In this document: positions 11,846 to 48,572 of the stretch, piece after piece
Numbering within the stretch: position 1 is the first letter of the stretch
How the letters are laid out: every line of letters starts with the position of its first letter
DNA from: Globomyces pollinis-pini
Taxonomy: Eukaryota > Chytridiomycota > Chytridiomycetes > Rhizophydiales > Globomycetaceae
NCBI GenBank assembly: GCA_025399215.1
Contig: MU621210.1
Coordinates: forward strand, 1 to 51,436
Length of the DNA stretch: 51,436 bases
Direction of reading: 5' to 3'
Position numbers and translations under genes: made by a program
The notes under the pieces: generated by a model
The model's input: only the letters and a program-made list of their open reading frames with translations
Told to the model about the DNA's origin: nothing
Database searches by the model: none

Positions 11846-14132
<2,287 letters not shown>

Positions 14133-16925: not shown

Positions 16926-18736
16926 ATGTCTGACAAGAAACAAACCTTAGAAGAGTTGATGGACAGCTTGGTCATCAAGCATGCCGAAACCGAACGTAGA
17001 ATAAACAAAGAGATTGATGCTGACATTATCTCTAAAATGGACAACCCGATCTTGGGTGTACAGTTCAAAAAACCATTCATTGTCGCTCCTTCCAATCCTT
17101 CCTTGTACTTCATTATTCCAAATGAATTTGCTGAACGTTTCTGTTACTACGGATGGTCTCCTTTGTTAAAAAAATTGTTGGGTGGTGTTCTTGGTTTATC
17201 CAAATGGTCCTATGGTTTAGACGGAAAGATCGCTGGAAAAGATGGTAATGATTGGCCATTAACTAACCTTTAGACACTGATGTAAATGCTTTTGCGTTGA
17301 ACTATGATTTCTTGACCTACTTTACTCCATTGCTGGGAGCCTTCATTTCTGATTCTTTCCTGGACAAGTACAAGACTATTGTATCCTTGGGTCTCTTTTA
17401 TTTGGTGGGTATGTTCATGCTCTCTTTTTCTGTAAACCCAAACATCCTTGGATACAGTCAAGTATTAGCTCCAATTTATGAAGCTTCTCCGCTTAATCAA
17501 ACTGTTATTGATGCTGGAATTAAATTCATTCCTCCTCAAGGCCCAAATGTCACATCTGCTCCAGCTTGGTTAGTCTACACTGCTTTGTTGTTCTTAGCTT
17601 TTGGTACTGGTGGTATTAAACCTTGTGTTTCTGCTCACGGTGGTGATCAATTCCTTCCACAACAGGGAATGGCCCTTAACTTGTTCTTTTCCATGTTCTA
17701 TATGTCTATTAACGTTGGTGCCATGTTGTCTGGTTTATTCGTTACACCTTTACAAGAAAAGAAATGTTTTGGTTCCCCTGAAGATTGTTTCTACGAAGTA
17801 TTCATCATCTGTTCCGTTGTATTTGCTATTGCCTACTTTTTGTTCATATTTGGTAAACGTTACTATAGAGTTGTACCACCAGCTGGTCGTTTTATTCTTG
17901 GTGATTTGTGTGTTTGTGGATTCACCTGGATGTTCAAGGGCAAAGAACATGTCGAATCCGTCTATGGAAAGTCTATTGTTATGGAAGCTGCTGACTTAGG
18001 AAAAGTTTTGGTTGCTATTCTCCCAACTCCATTCTTCTGGATGGCTTTCAAACAAAGTGGTAATCTATGGCAAGATTCTACCGATCGTCTCGGAAAAAGC
18101 ATTATGAACAGTGTTCAAATTAACACCGTCGTCAATCCTTTATTAATTGTTATTTTGGCACCATTATTTAACAAACTTGTTTACCCAGTATTACCAAAGA
18201 AATTTGGTCTTTTACAAAGAATCTGTCTTGGATACTTCTTCACCGCTTTATCCATGGTTATTTGTGGTTTAATTGACCAATATGTTTTGGCTAGATGCAC
18301 AGTTGATAGTTCTTTGGAAAGAGGATCTTACTATTATGGAGTCTGTGCTTATCCACAATTGGACAACACTATTTGGATCATTCCATATATCATCATGACC
18401 ATTGGTGAAGTTTTGATTTCAATTTCAGGACTTAACTTTGTATATGAAGAAGTAGGTAAACGTACCAAATCCTCATCCACTGCTCTCTGGCTTGTTGGAT
18501 CATCTTTCGGATCTTTCTTCACCTCACGTTTGAGTAAATTCTTGAAACCTGGAACTGTCGTCAACGAAAACCACAAAGTCACCTTTGATCAATTCTACTT
18601 TATTTGTGCTGGAATTTTAATGGTTGTTGTTATTCCACAAATGATCATTACTTACTTCTATGTTTACAAGGCTGATCGTCCAGAAACCATTGAATTGGAA
18701 AAGAAGATTGAGAAAGCTATAGATTATGAACCTTAA
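16926..18736 (+). CDS. Proton-dependent oligopeptide transporter (POT/PTR2 family)
   Basis: Two exons (16926-17244, 17274-18736) with a 29-nt intron give 593 residues. The family signature is the proton-coupling motif in NEFAERFCYYGW (ExxERFxYYG), followed by FGTGGIKPCVSAHGGDQF, the second POT signature, and about 12 hydrophobic helices ending near the C-terminus. POT carriers import di- and tripeptides with protons across the plasma membrane or endomembranes; the family also includes some nitrate and drug transporters, so substrate is inferred. The 68-residue N-terminal extension before the first helix is hydrophilic. For an osmotroph or intracellular parasite, peptide uptake fits well. Confidence 0.93.
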
Positions 18737-21432: not shown

Positions 21433-21472
21433 NNNNNNNNNNNNNNNNNNNNNNNNNNNNNNNNNNNNNNNN
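21433..21472. other. Assembly gap (40 N)
   Basis: Forty N bases. The 181 bp before it (21252-21432) and the 181 bp after it (21473-21653) are identical, so the two contig ends overlap and the true genome most likely has a single copy and no gap. Confidence 0.98.
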
Positions 21473-21734: not shown

Positions 21735-23210
21735 TTAGCATTGTATTGTTGAATTATGTTGTTTTGGAACTTTTTTGATTTTCCTTAATTTAGGAATCAG
21801 CTTTCCAAATTTTTCCAATAGTGTCAAATGAATGGCATTATGAGAAAAAATGATAAAGTATCGTATACATACTGATAATGTATAAATTCTATCGCTTCCA
21901 AGTATCAAGGTATAATTTTGTAGAAAGCTCATGAGGTAGAACAAAATAATTCCAGATATCTGAATAAATAGTAGGATAACAAAGTATGAATCTTGTTTGA
22001 ACAGAAAGCGAAGGTAATGTTTTTTCGTGTGTTTGAATCGAAAAACGATGACCAACAATGGCATTAAATTCACTAAGAAAAATATGAGAGTCCAGTATGG
22101 TGCCCAACTGTACCAAATAGAGAGATCATTGTAGGACATAATACAATTGTTATGGCTATCGAAACAGAGAGAAAAATATCTACTTCCAGCTAATAGAAAA
22201 TGTAGTACTGTAATTATTAAAGCAAGTGAGATCTTCATTGTCTTTCGACTTCCTTCCAATCGGAGATCAACTAAGATATTAATGGTTAAGATAATAGTTC
22301 CCATTGTAGAAACATTCTCGAATATTGACGAAACACCAAAATGAATCAGGTAATCATCTCCAATATAGTAGATATACGATACCCGACTGATCACTGTGAT
22401 TAGCCAAGAAAGATTCAAAATGATAAAGTATCGAAATAGGTTTTGCTTTCTTTTAAAGTACAATTGATAAAAACATGATAGAACCGACACGATTGAGAGT
22501 GCACATAGAAAGCCGATTGTGATGTCTGAAACTGTGAATGTATTTGGGATATAAAGGGACTGAGGAACCTCCGATATCCATGGATAAGTAATTGTGCCTT
22601 CAGTTGTCTTTATAAAAGACAGAGAAACACTAGTAAATACACTATTGTAAATTGTAGTTGGAAGTTTGGACAGCTGAATTGAAAAATTTGAGTTAATACA
22701 GGATTTGTCATTATATACTGTCAGAAGTCCTGTGCTGGAGCATATCATACTTTCTGTACATTCATCATTTGCCAAGATTAGTATATCTTGGTATGGAAGG
22801 TTCGAGTGAACGCTGTTGGAGTGAAGTAGACAATATTTTGTGTTGTTAGCTTCCAAAGGAAGGTACCCAAAAATTAACGGATTTGTCGAAGACATCAATG
22901 CTGGGGCACTGCTCTTGTAATTTCCGGATCTGTTTGGAGTTAATGACTTTACACAACAATTGATGGAGAATTGTGGTGGTGCTACTCCGCACTGATAATA
23001 AAAAGCGTCCATAGCATTTAACTGAAATGATTCTGGCCATATTTCGTTTGGTTCAGGTTCATAACCTTCTAAATCGGAGATTGAAAATGAACAAACCGAG
23101 TTGGGTGGTCCAGAACATCTATCTGAGTGCAACCATTGAGAATGAACCAAGACATGAGACAATACCGTATAAAACTGGGTATGTATAGCGTATAGCGTCA
23201 GTATATTCAT
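21735..23210 (-). CDS. Seven-transmembrane protein with Cys-rich ectodomain (GPCR-like orphan, copy 1)
   Basis: An intronless frame of 491 residues. The N-terminus (MNILTLYAIHTQFYTVLSHV) can serve as a signal peptide. An ectodomain of about 200 residues follows with a conserved Cys layout: RCSGPP, CGVAPP...NCCVKSL, KYC, ECTESMICSS and KSC, plus N-glycosylation sites. Seven hydrophobic helices follow from about residue 228, including a FENVSTMGT helix, a LLAGSRYFSL helix and a WAPYWTL...FRF helix. A second gene at 29799-31250 has the same layout and is a paralogue. The topology is GPCR-like, but no DRY or NPxxY motif is seen, so coupling to G proteins is inference. It is divergent from the MYND-presenilin gene. 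Confidence 0.85.
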   Translation of the reverse strand: MNILTLYAIHTQFYTVLSHVLVHSQWLHSDRCSGPPNSVCSFSISDLEGYEPEPNEIWPESFQLNAMDAFYYQCGVAPPQFSINCCVKSLTPNRSGNYKSSAPALMSSTNPLIFGYLPLEANNTKYCLLHSNSVHSNLPYQDILILANDECTESMICSSTGLLTVYNDKSCINSNFSIQLSKLPTTIYNSVFTSVSLSFIKTTEGTITYPWISEVPQSLYIPNTFTVSDITIGFLCALSIVSVLSCFYQLYFKRKQNLFRYFIILNLSWLITVISRVSYIYYIGDDYLIHFGVSSIFENVSTMGTIILTINILVDLRLEGSRKTMKISLALIITVLHFLLAGSRYFSLCFDSHNNCIMSYNDLSIWYSWAPYWTLIFFLVNLMPLLVIVFRFKHTKKHYLRFLFKQDSYFVILLFIQISGIILFYLMSFLQNYTLILGSDRIYTLSVCIRYFIIFSHNAIHLTLLEKFGKLIPKLRKIKKVPKQHNSTIQC

Positions 23211-23522: not shown

Positions 23523-25284
23523 ATGCCAACTCAGGAACAGTCCAGCAGACCAACAACAAACCACCAGTCTAATGAAGAAAATTCATTAGCTAGTTCCCAA
23601 AATCACAGGAATTTAGTCTGTATTGTATGTTCAAAAAAAGCACTTTTTATGTGTTCTCTATGCTCTTCTGTTCATTACTGCTCAGGTTTGATTAATAATC
23701 ATACCTCTGATAACTAGAAACCTGTCAACAAAACCACTGGCCAATTCATAGAGATACGTGTGCTGGATATCAGAGACCAACCACAACCAGTGAACATGGT
23801 TCTGAAAATCAATTAGATACCATCAAATACTATGTAGCAGAATTATCCAAAATACTAAAACCTGTGACACTTTGTATGTTCACTTCAATCTTATGGGTTA
23901 AATTATCCAACCCTCCCATTGATTACTTCGAGACTGGGACACCGAAAGATAAGGTCGTTTCTATTGGAAGCTCGTTTGGTAGTGAAGGTGGAAGCTCAGA
24001 CTCTGAATCAATCAAATTTGCTGTGATCATTATGGCACAAATTGTTGTTGCAACAACAATTATTGCGTGTTTGTTCAAATATGGAAAACAGAAGGTATTG
24101 GACTCATAACATATTAACTTGTATTTAGATTATATATGGTCTTTTTGGATTCGTTGTGTTTGTTCTCCTTTCACTGTTTGGCTACCGATTAACCGCAACG
24201 TTATTGATGATTGCAAACTTTCCAATGGTACAATAAGACATAAAATATTAAACGATACAGGATTGGATCACTCTGGCCTTTTTTCTATGGAATTTTGTTG
24301 CAGGAGGATTAGCCATTATATTTTGGAAAGGTCCAAAAACTTTAATGCAGTGTTATTTAATTCTGATGTCCAGTATGATGGTACTTTATTTATTTAACCG
24401 ATGATAGGCATTCTCTCTATCTCAAATTCCTGCCCTTGTAACTTGGTCCCTTTTAGGGTTTTTGGCTGTGTGGGGTAATTCAAATTCCAGTATTTATCTT
24501 TTGTAGATTTAATAGCAGTGCTATGTCCATATGGTCCATTAAGAGTAATGTTAGAGTCATCTCAAGCAAATGGAACTCAGATACCCAATGCTCTAATCTA
24601 TTCGTAACATTTCCATCGGTTTAAATTTTTAGGGGTAATAGTGTCTACCTTTTAATATGATTAGCTATGATATGGATTATGGCAACGCCTGGAAACCCAC
24701 CAACTATATCTGTCGATAATCTAGACCAATCATCATCAAATGACAACCGATCTCCAATTTTCGTCGCCCGTTCTGGTACCGATCAAACAAGCTCTACTGC
24801 TCAATTGGTACCCAGACCGACAGTATCAGCAGCCGACAGTGGTAATCCCTTAATATATGAGCCAACAGATTTGACAGAACGGAGAAGATTGACGAATGAA
24901 TTTGAATTAGCCGATTTTAGTGATCCAAATGCCGCACAAAGTGTTCAAAGTACTGACACTGATCACGACAATGGTTTGAAGTTAGGATTAGGCGATTTTG
25001 TATTTTATTCCGTTTTGGTTGGTAGAGCATCGTTATCCGATTGGGTCACTACCGTATGTTCCATTATTGCAGTATTATCTGGTCTGGTTATAACAATCTT
25101 TATTTTGGTGATGACAAGAAAACCATTACCTGCGTTACCAATTTCAATCTTTTTTGGAATTCTTATTTTCATTGTATCCTCAATCACTTTGACACCTATG
25201 ATGGGCCATCTTTTAACATACACAATTCAACAGGCAGGTACTCTCCGTGCTGGTAGCCAGCCAAGTGGTTTTATGTATCTCTAA
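23523..25284 (+). CDS. Presenilin (aspartyl intramembrane protease) with an N-terminal MYND zinc finger
   Basis: Eight exons (23523-23685, 23718-24094, 24129-24227, 24261-24380, 24408-24474, 24507-24603, 24633-24634, 24665-25284) sum to 1545 nt, 514 residues. Residues 33-69 form a complete MYND finger: Cys 33/36, 44/47, 53/57 with His65 and Cys69. The rest is presenilin: KPVTLCMF in TM1, the first catalytic Asp276 in AVWDLIAVLCPYGPLR, a hydrophilic loop of about 100 residues, the second catalytic Asp419 in LGLGDFVFYS, and the PAL motif (464-466) in PLPALPISIFFG. Presenilin is the protease core of gamma-secretase. The active site reads WD instead of the usual YD. MYND fingers bind proline-rich peptides and would lie in the cytosol here. 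No other gamma-secretase subunit is in the window. Confidence 0.9.
24633..24634 (+). other. 2-nt micro-exon of the presenilin gene
   Basis: Between the exon ending at 24603 and the exon starting at 24665 only one solution keeps the conserved presenilin frame (YSAMIW, the counterpart of YSSTMVW). It uses two canonical introns of 29 nt (24604-24632) and 30 nt (24635-24664), both GTAA...TAG, flanking the dinucleotide GG. A single 61-nt intron shifts the frame and hits a stop. Confidence 0.7.
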
Positions 25285-25366: not shown

Positions 25367-28009
25367 TCAATTTTCATTCAAATCAATGCCTTGAGATTGA
25401 AATTGGATTTTCAATAGTAATGCAAATTCTTCATTTTCAGCAGTTAACGGTTGAAGATACTGGTACACTTGTTTACTGAGAGGTAGATTATCCTGTTGGT
25501 AATGCATCCAAACTTCAGCAATTCGATCAGGATCCGTTTGCTTAAAAGCTATGGCATATTGTTCCAATGTGACTTTATAATGCTGTTGTAATAAATTGTA
25601 CCACTTCCACTCATCATCCAATGATATATCTGTTGAAGTTGTGGCAAGCAATTTTGTTAATATGCGTTCAGATGGATAAAATCCTTCTGGAATATCTTCC
25701 AATAATTGTATACATTCCAAAATCAAGCCTTGGTGCAAATAATATTCAGCCATACTGGAAAATACCGTTTCAATTCCTTTAGAATATCGCTTTGATCTTT
25801 TTTTAATTCTTGGTAAACAAAACTCTTCCATGAGCAATTGGATTTTAGATTCATTTGGAGTATTTATAAAGCATAAAATTGTATATGATAGCATGTAATT
25901 AGACGGAACCCATCCCAAACTCTTTAACCTATCTAGTAACTTTTGCATTTCACTTGTGTCTTTAGAAAGTGAGAATCCTCTTGCTAAGGCTTCAAACGTG
26001 AGCATTTGTGTTATTCTGGGAGATGATAATACATACTTTGATATACGTTGAACTCGTTCAAAATCACCAACATCTGCCATCACATTCAATAATTTAGAGC
26101 CTCGAACGGACATATAATTATTATATCCCTGTTCAATTGATTTTTCGTGAAAATCAACTAATTGCTGATATTCGACATCAATTTGAATCTTTAGTTTCTC
26201 AAATTTTTCGAGATGTAAACTCTTATAATACGACAAGTTGTTTTTCTCTTCTATTAAGGTAGTTACCGTTTGCATTTTGTAATCCAATAGTTTGATATAT
26301 GTTAGGCGGTTAGGTTCAAGTCCTGCATCTATAATACGCTGATAAATATGACCAGCCAATCCAGTATTACATTCTACATGAGCAAAAATTAAGTTATTGT
26401 AAGTATCTATGGTTGGTATTATACCATCTTTTTTGTGCTCCGCCATAAGTTTGTCAATCTTTTCAAAATAACCCTAACTGTTAAAGTTGGATATTTTTAC
26501 CATAGGGCCATAAGCATTTACCATTGAATTAAGAGTGCGGATGGTGCTAGGGAATCCTCTTTTTTTCATTTCATCGTATAAGTCTTCAATATTCTTGTAA
26601 CGAACCTCATTGGCAGCAGCACTCTTTGAATATGCCTCAATTCCGTAGTAAAAAGTTTCTTGTGTGGCCAAGTTCTTTTCTAAAAGATTGTCTAAAAGAG
26701 TTTGAAACTGCGTCCACTTCCAATTCTTCCCATAATGATCTAGTAAGACGTTTTGAAATTTTACATCATCAATAACTTTCCCTGATTTCTCATAATCTGA
26801 AACCAATTCTCTGGAATATTCAAACTCACCCCATTGATTCAGAATAGGAAGCATAACATTGTATACTCTTGCATCAATTAAATCAAGCTTCTTTAAATTT
26901 CGGTAGACATCCATTGCCAAATCAAAATATTGGAAATAGCATAAAGATCTGAGCACATCTCGTTTGGTAAATCTATCCCAATCATTCCCTAGAAGTTAGA
27001 TATAAATTTATATGTGAATACCAATGACTTCTAAGGCGTTTTGATATACCTGCAAAAGAATGTTCCGGTTTGTCAAATGATTGGTTCCTGATGAGTTTTT
27101 AGTGGCATGTACGGTAATGTCTAGATATGTTGTAACAATAAATTTTGTCAATCTGTTTTGATGACGCAGTTGACGATATATTGAGATATAATTTGGATTT
27201 TTGGTATTATAATAATGCCTAATAATAAATGCCCAACTATCAGATGATATTTGATTTGGGATCATCATCAATAAAGAGTTCCAATCTATGGTTTCATTTT
27301 TTTCCAAAGAATCTTTGAGCTAAAATGTTAGCTGAAGTTATTGATATGGATGTGAAGGTGAGCGATCTATTGAAGAATAAAATACACTTACATTGGTCCA
27401 AAACATTTCCAAATCAGAGTTCCATTTGATTTTAGTTGGAAAGAGTTGCATCATCTCCTTTAGATGGTCAGAATATCCATTTTGCACTGACTCTTTTATT
27501 ATTTCACCCAGTACAATTGTAACAACTGGAGTTTGGTCAATGTCGTAGTTCTGATTAATTATTTCCTTATACACCTCCAAAATTTGATTAAATGAATTCT
27601 TTCTAAAGATTAGAAGTACCAATGCAATACTGAATTCGAATTTTTCGCAAGAAAGTAGGTAGTAAATTAAAAATGAGGGTTGAATCGTCCATAGCAGTTC
27701 TATGAACAGTGCGTAATAGAGACAAAAGTTGAAGACTAAACGTTTAGTTGAAAGAAAGTACCTTCGATGGTAATCATACGTATTATTTAGCGAACTATCT
27801 AATGCTTTTAGCAAATCCGAATCATATTTTGGTAAGGTAATTTTTAATTCTGAAGAGACTGTTTGGGGTATATCTGATATCGTAGCATTTGGTTCCAAAG
27901 AGTCGGTATAGTATCTGATTGATCGAAATGATTGATTCCCTCTCACCATACATTGAATCTGCTTATAGTTCCTTACGTTCCATCTCCTTAATCCTCTTAA
28001 ACTCAACAT
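25367..28009 (-). CDS. Mitochondrial pentatricopeptide-repeat (PPR-like) protein
   Basis: Six exons (27762-28009, 27631-27735, 27392-27602, 27022-27319, 26501-26988, 25367-26473) give 818 residues. The start at 28009 is chosen because MLSLRGLRRWNVRNYKQI is a good mitochondrial presequence and avoids overlap with SPC1, which ends at 28078. Degenerate 35-residue helical hairpins recur, such as VYNVMLPIL...FEYSRELVSDYEKSGK, TIRTLNSMVNAYG..GYFEKIDKLMAEHKKDGI and TIDTYNNLIFAHVECN, as in fungal PPR proteins. They bind RNA and support processing or translation of mitochondrial transcripts. Introns are 26, 28, 72, 33 and 27 nt; the 72-nt one is unusually long here. Confidence 0.85.
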
Positions 28010-47228: not shown

Positions 47229-48572
47229 ATGAAGAGATCGACTTCAAAGAAAATACAATCTACTGAGAAAAAGCAAAGAACTCTGGATTCATTCAAAGGA
47301 ATTACTAATTCAGTAGTGGAGTGGAAGGTCGAAGGAACAGTTTTGACTGGAACCTATTCTGACTTTACTCCAAAATCAAAAGTTGCTGCCTTTGATTTTG
47401 ATGGTATAAATAATGGTTAAATTAATTCAAGGTACTATTGCATCGGTAAAAGGGAAATATTCGTTTCCAAAAGATTCAAATGATTGGGTAAGTGATCAAA
47501 CATTGATATCTAGGTATGGTTCGATCCTTCCATTCCTTCCATCTTATTGCATTTAGATAGATTACAATATTGTTTAGTTATATTTTCCAATCAAAGAGGA
47601 ATTGAAGAATCAAAGAATCTAAAAAAGAAGGTGATATTTCAATCCAGAATTGAAAAGACAATCAAGGAAATTATAAAATACTGTGAAACTTTGGATTTAA
47701 AACCACCTCCAATGAAAATATATGCTGCAACAGAAAAGGATATTTATCGAAAACCATGTCAAGGCATGTGGTTAAAATACCAAAACACATTTAAATCTAT
47801 TATAATCAATCAAAAGGAAAGTTTCTTTTGTGGAGATGCAGCCGGTAGAAGCACTATTGGTAGAAATTCACATGCAAAAGATCATGCTGATACTGATTGG
47901 AAATTTGCACTCAATTGTGATTTACCATTCATACTCCCCCAAGAAATCTTTCATTCTGATAATGTAAAGAAATATCTCAAAGAACCAAAGTTACATCTGA
48001 TTAAAGAACCATCACTAGTCCTGACTGGTTTTGATCCCAAAACTTATACAAACAGTTTCGAAATTCCACAATTTGATCATTATGATATTCTAATCTGTGT
48101 TGGATCACCAGCATCGGGTAAGTCTAGTTTCTGTAAACGATACCTACCCAACCACCAAAGAATCAATCAAGATGAATTGAAAAATGTCAATGCATGTATC
48201 AAAACAGCTAAACAAGCTCTCTCCAGCGGACAAAAGGTGGTTATCGATAACACAAACCCCACCAAAGATGCTAGAAAAAAATTCATTGATATTGCCAATG
48301 ATAAAACCATTGCATGCATTTACTTCAATACAGATCTTGACATCGCTCAACACAACAAACAATATCGAGAGCTACATCCACTTATACGAGAGTTGGCCGG
48401 TCTTGGGAATGGTAGTGAGCCATACCCTCATGTACCCATGATTGCCCTCTATACCTTTTTCAAGAAATTTGAACGGCCTGCTATTGACGAAGGATTCCAC
48501 CATGTTTATGAAATACCATTTGTACCGTGTTTTGAAGAGGGCGGGGAAGAGTTTTGGAGACTGTATTACTAA
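47229..48572 (+). CDS. PNKP: Polynucleotide kinase 3'-phosphatase (PNKP)
   Basis: Three exons (47229-47403, 47432-47487, 47514-48572), introns 28 and 26 nt, encode 429 residues. The N-terminal HAD phosphatase has DFDGT (catalytic Asp56/Asp58), FSNQRG (102-106) and GDAAGR (184-189). The C-terminal kinase has Walker A GSPASGKS (274-281) and DNTNPTKDARKKF. The enzyme removes 3'-phosphates and adds 5'-phosphates at DNA breaks so they can be ligated. There is no FHA domain as in animal PNKP; instead a short basic tail carries QRTLDSFK at 16-23, similar to a PCNA-interacting peptide. The layout is like fission yeast Pnk1. Confidence 0.96.

Follow-up and report, generated by a model that had tools for sequence, protein, structure and literature searches.

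Presenilins of Globomyces pollinis-pini and of many other fungi are predicted to carry an N-terminal MYND zinc finger

Introduction

Presenilin has a nine-pass topology with its N-terminus on the cytosolic face of the membrane. The N-terminal tails of the human presenilins are disordered, and presenilin endoproteolysis falls in the loop between TM6 and TM7. MYND fingers are found on proteins of another kind: ZMYND8, BS69/ZMYND11, DEAF1, ETO and SMYD are nuclear or cytosolic. In BS69, residues Y540, Q546 and W550 mediate peptide binding, as do their equivalents in ETO and DEAF-1 (PMC4742278, excerpted text). The C. elegans protein CHB-3 combines a MYND finger with ankyrin repeats, and its MYND region matters for membrane-protein delivery (PMC2991246, excerpted text).

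We analysed a window of 51,436 nt (contig MU621210.1, positions 1 to 51,436) from Globomyces pollinis-pini, order Rhizophydiales. A first-pass annotation, made from the sequence alone, had noticed a MYND finger fused to presenilin and was aware of no such protein. We found no publication on a MYND-presenilin fusion in the titles and abstracts of the papers listed from the open-licence PMC literature, and the word MYND is absent from the excerpted main text of PMC10406608. Within the searchable literature the architecture therefore appears to be undescribed. The claim of novelty holds to that extent but not for protein databases, where the architecture has already been computed; entries with both PF01753 and PF01080 are named there as presenilin, MYND-type or hypothetical protein.

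Results

Gene structure

At 23523-25284 on the forward strand the spliced exons form a single frame in which an entire MYND finger (residues 33-69) precedes a full-length presenilin (Table 1). The exon model comprises eight exons with a total length that is a multiple of three, as the first-pass annotation had stated, and predicts a protein of 514 aa with a single terminal stop. TM labels were placed on the exons by alignment to presenilin. The seven introns, within 23686-24664, are very short (27-34 nt each) and GT-AG in every case. An apparent exon of only two nucleotides (GG) is required to read ALIYSAMIW, and the same residues are present in the deposited protein, P0001 (Presenilin-domain-containing protein, Globomyces pollinis-pini, 502 aa). 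P0001 is identical to the exon-model protein minus 12 aa, and splicing through the finger is the same in both. As the 12 absent residues correspond to 24842-24877, the depositors probably treated this 36-nt stretch as an eighth intron.

Within exon 2 the second half of the finger, ETCQQNHWPIHRDTC, reads continuously through a short linker into TM1. In-frame ATG codons in exons 1 and 2 were found at codons 1, 43 (within the finger), 108 (within TM1) and 160, with none between finger and TM1. An independent presenilin start in 23718-23870, which the first-pass annotation had named as grounds for doubting the fusion, is thus missing as far as ATG codons go. If intron 1 were retained, translation would stop at TAG after 64 residues. 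The gene models of P0077, P0099 and P0109 are broken at, or start from, a YCS/xxCQ junction, which is the position of Globomyces intron 1; this hints that the intron position that splits the finger is old. A PF01080 profile search of the 18.5 Mb, 459-contig genome gave nine candidates and four matches, all at this locus, and we saw no second presenilin gene.

Table 1. Features of the presenilin locus and of neighbouring reading frames in the window
Feature	Position	Strand	Description
Neighbour ORF	12885-14132	+	tubulin match
Neighbour ORF	17297-18736	+	POT-family transporter match
Exon 1	23523..23685	+	residues 1-32 and first MYND half, ends ...HYCS; matches deposited protein P0001
MYND finger coding stretch	23619..23761	+	residues 33-69, interrupted by intron 1; Pfam PF01753 and PDB sequence matches
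Intron 1	23686..23717	+	32 nt, GT-AG, splits finger after HYCS
Exon 2	23718..24094	+	second finger half, ~19-residue linker, TM1, first lumenal loop, TM2
Exon 3	24129..24227	+	presenilin membrane domain; exon model and deposited protein
Exon 4	24261..24380	+	presenilin membrane domain; exon model and deposited protein
Exon 5	24408..24474	+	presenilin membrane domain; final base opens Asp276 codon
Exon 6	24507..24603	+	remainder of catalytic Asp276 codon (WD-LIAVLCPYGPLR)
Apparent 2-nt exon (GG)	24633..24634	+	flanked by introns of 29 and 30 nt
Exon 8	24665..25284	+	TM6-TM7 loop, GLGD, PALP, C-terminus, stop
In-frame 36-nt GT-AG stretch	24842..24877	+	missing from deposited protein
Second catalytic Asp codon (GLGD)	24994-24996	+	sequence; invariant column
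PALP	25129-25140	+	sequence; invariant column
Neighbour ORF	25367-26995	-	PPR repeats match, just downstream of presenilin
Neighbour ORF	47547-48572	+	polynucleotide kinase 3'-phosphatase match

Head-to-head with the presenilin gene lies a 491-aa ORF (21735-23210, reverse strand); 313 bases separate the two starts. By eye this ORF is multi-pass, and its N-terminal part is long and contains Cys; a Pfam search at E 0.1 with 486 of its residues gave no match. Just past its end is a run of 40 N (21433-21472).

Domain assignment

Both domains scored above their Pfam cut-offs. Presenilin (PF01080) matched residues 91-488 over the entire profile (1-408 of 408; E 5.6e-98, 328.8 bits against a cut-off of 34.3), and zf-MYND (PF01753) matched residues 33-69 (E 3.1e-10, 40.4 bits against 22.7). 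The zinc ligands follow the Cys4-Cys2HisCys order, and the numbering given by the first-pass annotation (Cys33/36/44/47/53/57, His65, Cys69) is exact in the exon-model translation. The non-zinc residues that contact peptide in MYND fingers are also present (Tyr52, Gln58, Trp62). The catalytic features that had been reported at first pass, both Asp residues and the PAL motif, were likewise found. The first catalytic Asp is Asp276 in TM6, in a WD context, and its column is invariant in the 60-row alignment. The second is in a GxGD motif that reads GLGD, invariant across the 60 aligned rows, and the PAL motif reads PALP. Among the matches listed, WD was found by pattern in 145 of the 150 proteins, with two of the remaining five unmatched by pattern. 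We dropped WD as an unusual catalytic motif, as Y/WD is already described as the first-Asp motif of presenilins (PMC2770060, excerpted text).

Against the PDB, the best sequence match of the finger was ZMYND8 (E 1.1e-6), with DEAF1, ETO (CBFA2T1), BS69/ZMYND11 and SMYD also matched; PDB presenilins align only from residue 72 onward. The ZMYND8/ZMYND11 subfamily profile PF24324 scored below its curated cut-off on the exon-model protein (23 against 27 bits); a newer version, PF24324.2, is assigned to P0001 and other rows in database entries. We assign the finger as MYND only. NCBIfam gave only sub-cut-off matches on P0001, the better of them to an archaeal presenilin family. The other gamma-secretase subunits were matched above the Pfam cut-offs in the same genome, once each: APH-1 at 34.1 bits (over a partial profile), PEN-2 at 73 and nicastrin at 68.6.

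Conservation of the finger

We compared mean pairwise identities in 42 of the 60 alignment rows; these were picked for two aligned finger Cys, a choice that slightly inflates the value for the finger (0.50). The flanks gave 0.14 each (pre-finger segment and linker), the core TM2-6 0.57, the TM6-TM7 loop 0.15 and TM7-9 0.68. By this measure the finger has changed little faster than the protease core, unlike its flanks. The linkers between finger and TM1 run from about 19 to over 100 residues and are poorly conserved.

Among the matches listed, 87 proteins are Pfam-positive for the finger. In these, His65, Gln58 and Trp62 are present in all 87 and Tyr52 in 86; the first and second finger Cys are missing in four and three rows, respectively. 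At the last zinc ligand, 80 rows have Cys, five have His and two have another residue. Chytrid presenilins in which we observed His for Cys at this position are P0032, P0039, P0041, P0042, P0046 and P0076; the swap should keep zinc binding. The Tyr/Gln/Trp set was also found in six other MYND fingers of this genome (those readable by pattern, of ten matches). MYND fingers in general have these residues, so no one ligand is indicated by them, and their retention shows a working MYND surface rather than a particular binding partner.

Distribution among fungi and relatives

Relatives were taken from two lists (the best 120 each), which together hold 150 distinct proteins and favour close relatives of the queries. 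Among these matches, precomputed Pfam assignments place PF01753 together with PF01080 in 87 of the 150, and the fusion is therefore not peculiar to the Globomyces genome. A fungal-finger profile run on the other 63 found ten partial or missed fingers, leaving 53 of the 150 without a trace.

The fingered proteins among the matches listed come from chytrids, Basidiobolus, Syncephalis, an aphelid (Amoeboaphelidium protococcarum), Blastocladiomycota (Allomyces, Catenaria, Blastocladiella, Sorochytrium), Glomeromycota (Rhizophagus, Gigaspora, Paraglomus, Acaulospora) and Mucorales, as well as from Mortierella and relatives. The search among chytrid and aphelid presenilins that had been proposed at first pass thus found the fusion there, and much more widely; Rozella and Paramicrosporidium are not among the 150 matches listed. 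Beyond fungi and aphelids the only named taxon in this set, which also holds metagenome rows, is the nematode Trichuris, without a finger. A protein search restricted to the finger returned the query alone, giving neither a nearest non-presenilin MYND nor a fusion outside fungi and aphelids.

Many of the 53 proteins without a trace of the finger begin inside the tail. In several finger-less models the first residue already lies within a tail that a fingered relative shares: Boothiomyces/Terramyces, Mortierella alpina (P0115/P0071), Podila (P0082/P0037), and Powellomyces, which matches the fingered Geranomyces michiganensis. Umbelopsis vinacea keeps the tail motif of its relative, with an unrelated stretch before it. 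Long finger-less tails of 114 to 187 residues were found in Piromyces, two metagenome relatives and Gonapodya. True absence is likely in these, to judge by the predicted proteins, and possible in Bifiguratus and Amoeboaphelidium occidentale, so the finger would be dispensable in some lineages. Extra domains accompany presenilin in Rhizophagus irregularis P0027 (PF06094) and Polyrhizophydium P0015 (ARM/HEAT-type). Both may be merged gene models, a suspicion raised by the lack of PF06094 in R. clarus P0121.

Presenilin-domain trees

Trees were built from presenilin-domain columns, leaving out those of the finger: a quick one of 85 rows and a careful one of 47, midpoint-rooted for drawing only. 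Rows grouped by lineage. In the 47-row tree, 20 chytrid rows form one starred group; a second starred group, of 24 rows, contains aphelids, Blastocladiomycota, Basidiobolus, Syncephalis/Thamnocephalis, Glomeromycota, Mortierella and Mucorales; Piromyces, Gonapodya and Hyaloraphidium are outside both. Chytriales show a local duplication.

With the finger label taken as annotated, truncated models included, the 85-row tree required 20 changes (2 of 500 shuffles were as low) and the 47-row tree 10 (169 of 500 as low, that is, no clustering beyond chance). We then set aside 25 of the 33 finger-less rows of the 85-row tree whose N-termini were, in our judgement, short, merged or apparently truncated; four changes were left, and still four without P0122. 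These change counts do not tell gain from loss. As the arrangement recurs, by prediction, across many deep fungal lineages, the fusion looks old and conserved, not a one-off; we infer one ancient fusion with vertical inheritance and some true losses. Given the 20 and 10 changes of the uncorrected label, the single origin rests on our reading of which absences are real. A division into two ancient paralogues, with and without the finger, was unsupported, as many finger-less rows of the 85-row tree have fingered neighbours from the same genus or a sister genus.

Motifs in the tail and loop

The pattern [NG][VAIM]AQxIN between finger and TM1, where the tails otherwise align poorly, was found in 17 proteins against a shuffled mean of 0.015; it was scored among the matches listed in the 125 of 150 proteins with a tail of at least 40 residues, and as the rows are related these are not 17 independent events. 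A looser pattern gave 20 matches among those listed, of which P0035 was rejected, and added Syncephalis and Rhizophlyctis. A GRGNxAQxIN-type motif is present in chytrids, Glomeromycota, Calcarisporiella, Umbelopsis and Syncephalis and absent from Globomyces. The form (R/G)GN(V/A/I)AQxIN, often followed by basic residues, was observed in the tails of P0024, P0026, P0043, P0058, P0087, P0121, P0136 and others. No Pfam family covers the tail-motif region of P0026.

We also considered that the finger might bind a PxLxP motif, the ligand pattern of MYND fingers, in presenilin itself. Among the matches listed, PxLxP is in excess in the presenilin loop (12 of 148, against 4.8 with sd 2.1 in shuffles) and also in the N-terminal tail, where 26 of 150 have it and shuffles gave 3.4. 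The loop matches are mostly different sequences with no shared site, and 23 of the 26 tail matches come from Mortierella and relatives and read P(R/Q)LTP (e.g. P0040, P0062, P0071, P0144). As these represent one inherited segment they are not general evidence, and with no conserved loop site a general self-ligand was rejected. On motif grounds, P(R/Q)LTP is a possible self-ligand of the finger within the Mortierella lineage.

Discussion

The Globomyces gene is unexceptional within an architecture that is widespread among fungi, and the interest is in the architecture rather than in this copy. Judged from sequence comparison, it probably encodes a chytrid gamma-secretase presenilin with a cytosolic MYND docking module, derived from one ancient fusion followed by losses. 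Cytosolic docking is suggested because presenilin N-termini face the cytosol and because a finger that should fold around zinc sits here on a poorly conserved tether. On the presenilin N-terminal tail, the finger would lie on the cytosolic face and could dock a short Pro/Leu-rich peptide of a partner or of a substrate tail, as other MYND fingers do. Docking may then set where the protease is located or what reaches it, and after maturation the finger would remain on the membrane-bound N-terminal fragment.

That the finger and presenilin are encoded together, and were joined once, can be doubted in two ways. Two neighbouring genes, one for a small MYND protein and one for presenilin, might have been read as one. 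The finger is indeed split by an intron, and the peptide produced on retention of intron 1 would carry half a finger; the second half, however, shares an uninterrupted exon with TM1 with no in-frame ATG between them, and 87 of the 150 proteins among the matches listed are predicted to have this fusion. This reading is largely contradicted by the genomic sequence and we rejected it as scarcely credible. The single spliced frame claimed at first pass, with both Pfam domains over their cut-offs in the 514-aa model, therefore stands. Several independent MYND-presenilin fusions in different fungal lineages would account for finger-less rows being interspersed with fingered ones, and for the 20 and 10 changes on the two trees, the latter unclustered beyond chance. 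Separate events would, however, have had to place the finger each time in the same position and orientation, and with common features beyond the ligands (Ala40 in 82 and Ser54 in 86 of 87, among the matches listed). Several finger-less models also begin within a tail that matches a fingered relative, and one tail motif is common to chytrids, Glomeromycota, Calcarisporiella, Umbelopsis and Syncephalis. We consider repeated fusion very improbable and retain a single ancient origin with losses.

What the finger does is a separate matter. The first-pass annotation had offered two roles, tethering to a cytosolic partner and release of the finger by autoproteolysis. Tethering or docking is the most reasonable inference, with the contact residues kept and the finger constrained; autoproteolytic release is unlikely given the established site of cleavage. 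Because that cut falls between TM6 and TM7, the finger should stay attached to the membrane-bound N-terminal fragment, and a role in anchoring or recruitment is more probable than release. MYND fingers do occur in chromatin proteins, ZMYND8, BS69/ZMYND11 and DEAF1 being among the PDB matches, and some of the tails are Arg-rich, as might suit a signalling fragment freed by autoproteolysis or another protease and acting in the nucleus like animal MYND proteins. Yet the Globomyces linker has only ~19 residues and is poorly conserved, and we regard release by either route as improbable. Another role would be a structural or assembly element, serving folding, stability or contact with PEN-2 or APH-1 and not peptide docking. 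Conservation of the finger close to that of the protease core agrees with this, as does the exchange of His for Cys at the last ligand (5 of 87 among the matches listed), which should keep zinc binding. Linkers that range from ~19 to >100 residues suggest an independent module instead, and the peptide-contact residues are kept; a purely structural finger thus seems unlikely, though less so than a released one. A cytosolic docking module is the role we prefer.

Extending the docking module to the fungal ancestor is more tentative. In the ancestral fungal gamma-secretase, a MYND finger, in many lineages joined by GRGNxAQxIN in the tail, may have served as a built-in adaptor on the cytosolic side that recruited partners or substrates directly to the catalytic subunit and was lost with the enzyme in Dikarya; we hold this to be plausible but somewhat short of probable. 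If true, an adaptor on the catalytic subunit would amount to a substrate-selection or localisation mechanism of a kind that, to our knowledge, is without precedent in animal or plant gamma-secretase. If the catalytic subunit has a conserved docking domain, the proteins that bind the finger should lead to partners or substrates of fungal gamma-secretase. The arrangement also suggests that presenilin tails can serve as recruitment modules, which bears on the sorting of the animal enzyme.

The closest systems each share a part of this arrangement. Human PSEN1/PSEN2 (PF01080) likewise have both catalytic Asp residues, GLGD and PALP; the Globomyces protein matches the presenilin profile over its full length and the other subunits were matched in its genome, and it differs from the PDB presenilins in having a MYND finger upstream of TM1. 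With ZMYND8, BS69/ZMYND11, DEAF1, ETO and SMYD its finger has in common the Cys4-Cys2HisCys ligands and Tyr/Gln/Trp, but those fingers are carried by nuclear or cytosolic proteins and this one by a nine-pass membrane protease. CHB-3, as described in the excerpted text of PMC2991246, is a separate protein that acts on a guanylyl cyclase and is not fused to its cargo, whereas the Globomyces finger is fused to presenilin. The same architecture is found in the fungal presenilin entries with PF01753 and PF01080, among which P0001 represents the Globomyces gene itself.
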